Shown in pieces: positions 845-10,608 of a stretch of DNA of 64,000 nucleotides (its first letter is position 1; the number at the start of each line of letters is the position of its first letter). Under the pieces are notes generated by a model, which saw nothing but the letters and a program-made list of their open reading frames with translations, did no database searches and was not told where the DNA came from. The stretch spans positions 496,001 through 560,000 of the forward strand of contig CALUZB010000004.1 of the NCBI GenBank assembly GCA_944325195.1. The letters are read 5' to 3'. The translations under genes were made by a program, and so were the position numbers. This DNA comes from an uncultured Desulfovibrionaceae bacterium. GTDB taxonomy: Bacteria > Desulfobacterota > Desulfovibrionia > Desulfovibrionales > Desulfovibrionaceae.

Positions 845-2104
845 TCACCCAAACGTCGGTTCATGTAAAAGCCGGGAAATCTGTTCCACATCCTTGTCAC
901 CGCGTCCGGACAGGCAAACCAGCACACTGGCTTCCCGGGGCATTTCCGCCGCCAGCTTCATTGCTTGGGCCAACGCATGAGAGGACTCTAAAGCAGGTAT
1001 AATTCCTTCTGTACGACTTAAAGTCAGAAAAGCGTCTATTGCTTCCTGGTCACTGGCAAGCAGATAGTCCGCTCGCCCCAGCGCCTTAAGGCTGGCGTGC
1101 TCCGGGCCTACGCCGGGGTAATCAAGCCCGGCTGAAATGGAATATACCGGGGCGACATTACCATGCTCATCTTGCAGAATAAGGCTGCGGTAGCCATGCA
1201 ATACTCCCGGCTTGCCAAAGGTAACAGTCGCCGCGTGTTCACCCAGCTTCAACCCTTTGCCGCTCGGTTCAACTCCAACCAGGCGCACAGATTCATCCTT
1301 TATAAAACCGGAAAATATGCCGATGGCATTGGAGCCGCCCCCCACACAGGCCACTATGCAATCCGGCAACTTGCCGGTCATTTCCAACATCTGCTCACGG
1401 GCTTCTTTGCCAATCACAGATTGAAATGCGCGTACCATCATCGGATAAGGATGCGGGCCTACGGCTGAACCAAGCACATAAAAGGTATTGCCTTTTTGAT
1501 CAATCCAATCTTCAATGGCTACATCCACAGCTTCCTTAAGGGTACGCTGCCCCCGAGTAACGCTTACTACCCTAGCCCCCATCATCTCCATGCGGAATAC
1601 GTTTAATGCCTGGCGCCGGGTATCTTCTTCCCCCATGTACACCACACATTCCATTCCCAGCAAGGCGGCTACAGCCGCAGTTGCCACTCCATGCTGTCCA
1701 GCCCCAGTTTCCGCTATCACTCGTTTTTTACCCATGCGTTTGGCAAGCAGAGCCTGCCCTAAGGCATTATTGACCTTATGCGCTCCAAGGTGGTTCAGAT
1801 CTTCCCGTTTCAGATAGATCTGCGCTCCGCCTATCTGGTCGGACAGGTTGCAGCAATGAAACAGCGGCGTTTTACGTCCGGAATAATTCTGGAGCAAATC
1901 GTTCAGTTCCGTTACAAAAGATGGATCTGCGCTATAATGCTGAAAAGCCTCGTTCAGCTCTTCCAGAATAGGGATTGCCGCTTCCGGCACGTACCGTCCG
2001 CCAAACTCACCAAAATATCCCAGATTGTCGGGTTGAGGGAATTCGTTAGGGTTGAAAGAAAAAATCTCTTCCCCTTTGAAAGGGGCATTTGACGACATGC
2101 ACAT
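845..2104 (-). CDS. trpB: Tryptophan synthase beta chain
   Basis: A 419-residue protein that condenses indole with L-serine to give L-tryptophan using pyridoxal phosphate. The N-terminal motif [13 protein letters not shown], the PLP-lysine segment [13 protein letters not shown], the phosphate-binding GGGSNAIG and the C-terminal LSGRGDKD are all present, and length is normal for TrpB1. The start at 2104 has AGAGGAG six bases upstream; a second ATG lies two codons in. The gene stands alone: trpA and the rest of the pathway are not adjacent, and the next gene downstream is convergent. It is preceded by a trp attenuator and a hairpin covering its ribosome-binding site, so it is probably tryptophan-controlled in its own right. 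An imperfect inverted repeat near 789-828 may end the transcript. Confidence 0.97.
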
Positions 2105-2140: not shown

Positions 2141-2147
2141 CTCAAAT

Positions 2148-2181
2148 AAAAAATCGCGGTCAGAGAACCTCTGCCGCGATT
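2148..2181 (-). terminator. trp attenuator (intrinsic terminator)
   Basis: AATCGCGG (2181-2174) pairs with CCGCGATT (2159-2152), with an inner CAGAG/CTCTG extension and a three-base GTT loop (one unpaired A), followed by six T (2153-2148). It lies between the tandem-Trp leader peptide and trpB. The 5' arm can instead pair with GCCGCG..ATT (2217-2207), which overlaps the leader stop codon, giving the alternative antiterminator required for ribosome-mediated attenuation. Confidence 0.88.
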
Positions 2182-2208: not shown

Positions 2209-2301
2209 TCACGCGGCCCGAATATAATTCGGGCGCCACCAGTTACCCGCCATCAAAGGCAGATTTAAAACAGCTGATGATTTGTAATAGTTGGATTTCA
2301 T
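2209..2301 (-). CDS. trpL: trp leader peptide with tandem Trp codons
   Basis: An open frame of 30 codons ends in TGA at 2211-2209 and carries two adjacent TGG codons (2241-2236). Its last 14 residues are MAGNWWRPNYIRAA. Two starts are possible: ATG at 2301, which sits at the expected transcription start of the promoter below and would make a leaderless message, or ATG at 2253. Neither has a good Shine-Dalgarno sequence, which favours the leaderless reading. An 8-bp stem (2234-2227 with 2223-2216) begins just after the Trp codons. A ribosome stalled there would block this stem and release the downstream arm to form the antiterminator; a ribosome reaching TGA would cover that arm and permit termination. 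This is the logic of the classical trp attenuator. Confidence 0.82.
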   Translation of the reverse strand: MKSNYYKSSAVLNLPLMAGNWWRPNYIRAA

Positions 2302-2307
2302 GCGTTC

Positions 2308-2335
2308 AATATACCCATGTAAATTATCTTGTCAA
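2308..2335 (-). promoter_or_regulatory. Promoter of the trp leader and trpB
   Basis: TTGACA (2335-2330), a 16-base spacer and TATATT (2313-2308) form a strong sigma-70 type promoter on the minus strand. The expected start point, about seven bases after the -10 box, falls on the ATG at 2301. It lies just beyond the tonB stop codon, so trpB has a promoter separate from the corrinoid operon. Confidence 0.75.
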
Positions 2336-10319: not shown

Positions 10320-10380
10320 AATCCGTTTTAATTGCAGTGCCGGATTCCCAAAGCCAACCTCGAGCCGGAAATCGAAAATC

Positions 10381-10562
10381 AAGGCAGGTCTTCTGGCTCC
10401 CGGATCTCAGACGAGCGGTTCAATATGGAAACAATCACTCCTATTGCCAAACCTTCCCGTATTTACAGTGGCCGGCCGCTTTTTCAGGCCTGCTGGCAAG
10501 TCTCCCCGGTTACAGCGGCGGGTCCGCAACGGTTTTGCACCGTTTTCCCTTTTAAAGCCCGA
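10381..10562 (-). promoter_or_regulatory. Cobalamin riboswitch
   Basis: On the minus strand the aptamer shows, in order, GGTGCAAAACCG, GCGGACCCGCCGCTGTAA, AGACTTGCCAGCAGGCC, the core GGCCACTG, GGGAAGG and the 3' B12 box AGCCAGAAGACCTGCC. These are the conserved elements of the adenosylcobalamin-class riboswitch. It sits downstream of a promoter and upstream of an intrinsic terminator and the corrinoid uptake operon, so it should repress the operon when cobalamin is plentiful. Confidence 0.95.
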
Positions 10563-10579
10563 CGGGCTACCTTAGCTGG

Positions 10580-10608
10580 ACTATAGTAAAGCCGTCTGGG
10601 CAAGTCAA
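10580..10608 (-). promoter_or_regulatory. Promoter of the corrinoid operon
   Basis: TTGACT (10608-10603), a 17-base spacer and TATAGT (10585-10580) lie just upstream of the riboswitch aptamer on the minus strand. Confidence 0.7.

Follow-up and report, generated by a model that had tools for sequence, protein, structure and literature searches.

Known leader peptides at transcript 5' ends

Classical trp attenuators of enteric bacteria carry tandem Trp codons before a terminator, and their leader has a 5' UTR with a Shine-Dalgarno (SD) sequence. Leader peptides encoded by leaderless mRNA are already known from Sinorhizobium, Streptomyces, and Corynebacterium. In Sinorhizobium meliloti, the transcript of trpL (rnTrpL), the attenuator of trpE(G), has the leader ORF at its very 5' end and acts by attenuation through Trp codons and a terminator, and the rnTrpL RNA and peptide also act in trans (PMC7298713). 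Streptomyces lividans has a leaderless trpL1 before trpE, identified by RNA-seq, with three Trp codons and a terminator, and further leaderless leader peptides are described in the same source (PMC8079986). In the ilvBNC attenuator of Corynebacterium glutamicum, the +1 lies one nucleotide from the leader start codon, and a change of this codon lowers expression (PMC11857589). A leaderless leader peptide of C. glutamicum (PMC4046766) and leaderless polycysteine ORFs of mycobacteria (PMC13236596) also appear as reference titles.

The locus described here shares with the two trp systems a Trp leader ORF at the predicted 5' end, Trp codons, and a terminator, and with ilvBNC a start codon at or next to the +1, which is predicted for this locus. 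It differs from each of them in target and lineage. S. meliloti trpL controls trpE(G) through a 14-residue peptide in Alphaproteobacteria (PMC7298713); S. lividans is an actinobacterium in which 17% of the primary starts are leaderless and trpE is the target (PMC8079986); and ilvBNC, also in a phylum different from that of this locus, senses branched-chain amino acids and follows a three-hairpin model (PMC11857589). Neither Trp leader peptides nor leaderless leader peptides were recognised in the open-access literature for Desulfovibrio or its phylum. A transcription-start mapping study of D. vulgaris reportedly exists. What is new here is the bacterial group and the target, a stand-alone trpB.

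Promoter and leader of the stand-alone trpB

The window, a stretch of 64,000 nt, belongs to the genome (G000, 2.48 Mb in 27 contigs) of a member of the Desulfovibrionaceae. Its minus strand carries a trpB gene preceded by a promoter and a short ORF, which are most probably (probability about 0.85, judged from sequence) parts of a classical ribosome-mediated Trp attenuator whose leader peptide would be read from leaderless mRNA. The relevant features are the following.

2330..2335, minus strand: -35 box TTGACA (sequence and promoter scan)
2308..2313, minus strand: -10 box TATATT, with a spacer of 16 nt to the -35 box (sequence and promoter scan)
2301..2301, minus strand: predicted +1, the A of the leader ATG, with C at 2302 before it
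2209..2301, minus strand: leader peptide ORF of 30 codons, MKSNYYKSSAVLNLPLMAGNWWRPNYIRAA, stop codon TGA 2209 (sequence)
2236..2241, minus strand: tandem Trp codons TGGTGG, codons 21-22 of the leader ORF (sequence)
845..2104, minus strand: stand-alone trpB, tryptophan synthase beta subunit (TIGR00263, 608.7 bits, cut-off 392.45)

In the promoter scan, TTGACA and TATATT match the consensus at 11 of 12 positions. The six nucleotides GAACGC lie between the -10 box and ATG 2301, and the A of this ATG is the seventh base past TATATT. Start sites usually combine a pyrimidine at -1 with a purine at +1. The initial annotation had placed ATG 2301 at the expected +1 and had read the frame of the Trp codons as open back to it; both readings hold in the sequence, with the ORF running to TGA 2209. 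Transcription typically begins 7-8 bp past the -10 box, at a purine (PMC5101437). A promoter matching at least 11 of 12 positions, with an ATG 5-7 nt past the -10 box and a pyrimidine at -1, occurs a single time on both strands of the 64-kb window, at this site, and the same combination was found in 1 of 20 first-order random windows, with thresholds that were chosen after the site was known.

SD pairing energy was calculated for the 20 nt upstream of each start against CCUCCUUA. It is -2.2 kcal/mol at ATG 2301, +1.7 at the internal in-frame ATG 2253, and +1.2 at TTG 2256, as against -8.6 kcal/mol at trpB ATG 2104, which is preceded by the SD sequence AGAGGAG. The values of -2.2 and +1.7 bear out the earlier statement that both leader ATGs lack an SD.

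Conservation in Desulfovibrionales

With the window trpB as query, 146 of 348 genomes of the order matched at E 1e-152 or better, and 144 stand-alone trpB loci were read out (G174 and G342 were left out). The criterion for a leader was a short ORF that contained TGGTGG and had an ATG anywhere upstream in the same frame, the distance to the promoter not being set; only ATG starts were considered, and at loci with several candidates preference went to one that had TTGAC on its 5' side and a T-run on its 3' side. Such Trp-Trp leader ORFs are present at 97 of the 144 loci, and 93 of these 97 leaders have an ATG in frame 28-34 nt past the end of TTGACN (28 nt in 1 leader, 29 in 19, 30 in 34, 31 in 19, 32 in 7, 33 in 12, and 34 in 1), the ATG nearest 30.5 nt being chosen where several in-frame ATGs occurred at 22-38 nt.

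Four of the 97 are exceptions. L175 and L186, both of genus g53, have the ATG 58 and 52 nt past TTGAC, respectively, with an SD (GAGGA) ahead of the ATG in at least L175. In L183 and L219, TTGAC is missing, and these ORFs are perhaps not leaders. Among the 47 loci without a leader, 41 belong to genus g53 and six to others, one of the latter (L051) covering only 57 nt upstream. The Trp-Trp leader before trpB is missing at 41 of 44 loci in g53, and the whole arrangement is found at 93 of 100 loci outside this genus. A leaderless-type trpB leader conserved in Desulfovibrionales is the best reading of this comparison. The 47 loci that lack a leader and the longer distances in L175 and L186 speak against it, and the conservation in relatives is the strongest evidence against a chance origin of the promoter-ATG arrangement.

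In six loci of genus g48 (L048, L053, L058, L144, L147, and L148), the 29-nt spacing is kept and the ATG lies 31 codons before the Trp-Trp pair. Their attenuator may be decaying, because no T-run was found downstream of the leader.

The 93 leaders form 48 clusters at 75% identity, from 23 genera. Between the -35 and -10 boxes these clusters share no sequence, none of the positions -29 to -13 exceeding 0.2 bits. Immediately before the leader ATG, 36 clusters have C, 12 have T, and none has A or G, and such a pyrimidine at -1 in all 48 clusters is expected if the A of the ATG is the +1. For comparison, a pyrimidine precedes 281 of 530 other ATGs of the same regions (Fisher p 5.9e-13) and 30 of 45 trpB starts (Fisher p 4.4e-6), the clusters still sharing descent, so that these values are not strict probabilities. 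The best -10 boxes have a median score of 1.45 as against -1.54 in shifted controls (p 8e-12), several individual boxes being weak. Of the 48 clusters, 34 have a gap of 6 or 7 nt between -10 box and ATG, 5 have one of 5 or 8 nt, and 9 have one of 9-12 nt.

This spread of gaps leaves some room for a transcript that is nearly but not strictly leaderless, starting a few nucleotides before the ATG (5' UTR of 1-8 nt). In 14 of the 48 clusters the gap is 5 or 8-12 nt, and a 5' UTR of a few nucleotides is possible in nine of them, because the best -10 box lies 9-12 nt upstream, in some cases with a poor score. The +1 of C. glutamicum ilvL, one nucleotide from the start codon (PMC11857589), would be a precedent. 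Against such a start, every one of the 48 clusters has a pyrimidine before the A of the ATG, the expected start dinucleotide, and other nearby positions are not conserved. A short 5' UTR thus appears rather unlikely, and it would be functionally nearly equivalent to strict leaderlessness, since no SD fits into it.

The pairing energies of the 48 clusters point the same way as those of the window. The leader ATG has a median of -1.4, control 20-mers have one of -2.3, and trpB starts one of -8.2, and values of -4.5 or lower are found in 10 of 48 leader clusters, 103 of 470 control 20-mers, and 42 of 45 trpB starts. With the distance from -35 box to ATG fixed in 93 of 97 leaders, the invariant pyrimidine at -1, and SD pairing not above background, the sequence comparison supports the proposal of the initial annotation that translation of the leader may begin on an AUG placed at the +1.

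An ordinary leadered ORF, in which a 14-residue peptide is translated from ATG 2253 (or TTG 2256), is very improbable. ATG 2253 is in frame and four codons ahead of the Trp codons, and it is this position, 49 nt into the predicted transcript and only 4 codons from Trp, together with the missing SD (+1.7 at ATG 2253, +1.2 at TTG 2256), that led to its rejection as the start; furthermore, the promoter-fixed ATG of most relatives sits 10-15 codons before the Trp codons. Slightly less probable still is translation of the leader mainly by read-through from the tonB operon and coupled re-initiation, for which the position of tonB would speak, its stop codon ending at 2343, 7 nt ahead of the -35 box on the minus strand. 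However, a near-consensus promoter lies between the two, and relatives with different surrounding sequence have preserved the promoter-ATG spacing. The leaderless reading thus remains preferred for the trpB leader.

Predicted attenuator structure and proposed mechanism

Downstream of the Trp codons, the leader region contains the elements of a trp-type attenuator.

2216..2234, minus strand: 1:2 hairpin GCCCGAAT-TAT-ATTCGGGC, directly 3' of the Trp codons (fold and alignment covariation)
2212..2217, minus strand: strand 2 of the antiterminator, GCCGCG, pairing with 2178-2173 (fold and alignment)
2173..2178, minus strand: strand 3, CGCGGC, common to antiterminator and terminator (fold and alignment)
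2144..2181, minus strand: intrinsic terminator 3:4 with U-tract (hairpin 2181-2152, dG -18.4 kcal/mol)

In the window fold, tandem Trp codons, a terminator, and a mutually exclusive antiterminator are all present, and the fold z-score is -4.05. In the proposed mechanism, RNA polymerase would start at A2301, so that the transcript opens with the leader AUG, and a ribosome would bind this 5' AUG without an SD. When charged tRNA-Trp is scarce, the ribosome would stall on Trp codons 2241-2236 and cover strand 1, leaving strand 2 (2217-2212) to pair with strand 3 (2178-2173); no terminator would form and trpB would be transcribed. When Trp is plentiful, the ribosome would reach the stop codon at 2209 and cover strand 2, strand 3 would pair with strand 4, and transcription would stop near 2150.

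Folding of the window sequence agrees with both states. With a ribosome stalled at the first Trp codon, the RNA 2226-2168 folds 2217-2212 on 2178-2173 and the terminator is blocked, and strand 3 stays almost unpaired once the ribosome has moved to the stop codon. In a masking model applied to 47 cluster representatives, strand 3 (6 nt or more of it) is sequestered in 41 when the ribosome is stalled, in 7 when it sits on the stop codon, and in 27 when there is none; the window's own row in this set was scored on the downstream hairpin, and the window was folded separately.

A terminator lies between leader ORF and gene in 47 of the 48 cluster representatives. Alignment A1 comprises these 47 sequences, L048 being left out, as its terminator was not found. 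The 1:2 helix pairs in 90.4% and the terminator helix in 90.0% of the cells of A1, and the covariation score of each was reached by 0 of 500 shuffles. The 2:3 helix pairs in 88.4% of cells as against 28.6-57.9% in slid controls, but its covariation is weak, 16 of 500 shuffles scoring at least as high. The Rfam Trp leader families gave no match to the leader at the gathering score or at E up to 5. Openness of the first 25 nt, examined as a hallmark of leaderless mRNAs, does not exceed that of composition-shuffled controls (median 0.46 vs 0.47 unpaired, p 0.57). This null result and the weak covariation of the 2:3 helix weigh against the proposed reading.

A chance origin of the ORF and the promoter-ATG spacing, without a functioning attenuator, is hardly credible, for although single short ORFs and hairpins are common, the fold z-score of -4.05 and the conservation of Trp-Trp codons, three helices, and promoter-ATG distance across 23 genera speak against it.

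A second, SD-led Trp leader in the same genome

The genome of the window has a second trpB, 55% identical to the first and located on the same contig in the trp operon with trpB-trpA. The stand-alone TrpB would salvage indole into Trp, and the attenuator would couple its gene to Trp starvation.

The trpE leader of the same genome (L003 from 3318) encodes MIATANNIFTISGSHFVWWRGCLRPLI, has the promoter TTGACA-17-TATGAA and the SD sequence AGAGGA, and starts at an ATG 44 nt past TTGACA with an SD energy of -5.8; its predicted 5' UTR is longer than that of the trpB leader. The region L003:3268-3460 thus appears as an SD-led Trp attenuator ahead of the trp operon, with its own terminator-like hairpin and T-run. 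Like the enteric trp attenuator, this leader shares the tandem Trp codons and terminator with the trpB leader and differs from it by the SD-led 5' UTR. A leaderless AUG might help to synchronise translation with attenuation, as the initial annotation suggested, but the mechanism can do without it, since this SD-led leader has an attenuator layout as well.

Among the 48 representative genomes, 38 have a trpE match, and 30 trpE loci were examined. A crude search gave a candidate leader at eight of the 30; six of these were read, and the remaining two, L294 and L296, are doubtful. The trpE leaders of G000, G102, G248, and G260 are SD-led, with the ATG 44-72 nt past TTGAC and SD energies of -5.8 to -6.9, and those of G200 and G201 have the ATG at 49 and 61-64 nt and weaker SDs. 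As all six genomes also have a leaderless-type trpB leader, the SD-led and leaderless modes coexist.

Two Trp attenuators with two initiation modes, SD-led on the trp operon and leaderless on the probably indole-salvaging trpB, could allow the two TrpB enzymes to be induced under different conditions, if the leaderless one, besides Trp-tRNA charging, sensed the state of the ribosomes, such as levels of 70S particles or initiation factors, or stress; this idea is speculative and rather doubtful. The presence of both types in one genome would offer a natural experiment on initiation mode and translation-transcription coupling.

Trp leaders elsewhere in the phylum

The pattern TTGACA-N26..34-ATG-N18..48-TGGTGGTGG occurs in 91 of the 395 genomes searched in the phylum, as against 8 for the reversed control (controls counted by eye). 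Many of these matches sit inside ordinary genes, and the analysis was confined to loci that carry a Trp-Trp-Trp ORF in frame; the fixed promoter-ATG distance is imposed by the pattern and hence is not evidence. Such an ORF is present at 24 of 30 loci retrieved from the matches, 22 of the 24 having a long ORF downstream. A pyrimidine occupies -1 in 21 of these 22 loci (L263 has A). Nine of the 22 downstream genes were tested, giving seven TrpE and two TrpD, with TrpE pieces that are cut at the locus end and score below curated cut-offs. The loci stem from five further families (f14, f16, f39, f47, and f54).

A wider pattern (35-64 nt) gave in-frame leaders at 7 of 22 new loci (L270-L291), with the ATG at 41, 50, 52, 52, 53, 54, and 57 nt and an SD-like sequence in several. 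Since both searches gave in-frame leaders, Trp leaders of the leaderless and the leadered type both appear to occur in the phylum. At L273, a Trp-Trp-Trp leader-like ORF, with its ATG 41 nt past TTGACA, precedes an aminotransferase-like ORF (named by eye) and not a trp gene.

If the leaderless reading is correct, leaderless regulatory leader peptides are a conserved design across Desulfovibrionales, beyond a few Alphaproteobacteria and Actinobacteria, and probably also stand before trpE or trpD in the five further families. The signature of TTGACA, about 30 nt, and Y-ATG would be usable for finding unannotated leader peptides.

Surroundings of the trpB leader

Directly ahead of trpB ATG 2104, at 2143-2108 of the window (minus strand), lies a further hairpin, GAGCTCCTCTG...CAGAGGAG, with a T-run (dG -19.2). 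The SD of trpB is buried in this hairpin, which may serve as a second terminator or as a switch of translation.

On the other side of the leader, a minus-strand gene cluster finishes just ahead of the leader promoter. It is preceded by a cobalamin riboswitch (10366-10589 of the window, minus strand, 95.5 bits) and contains an ABC permease-like ORF (named by eye), a TonB-dependent receptor, a CbiS-like protein, ExbB, ExbD, and TonB.
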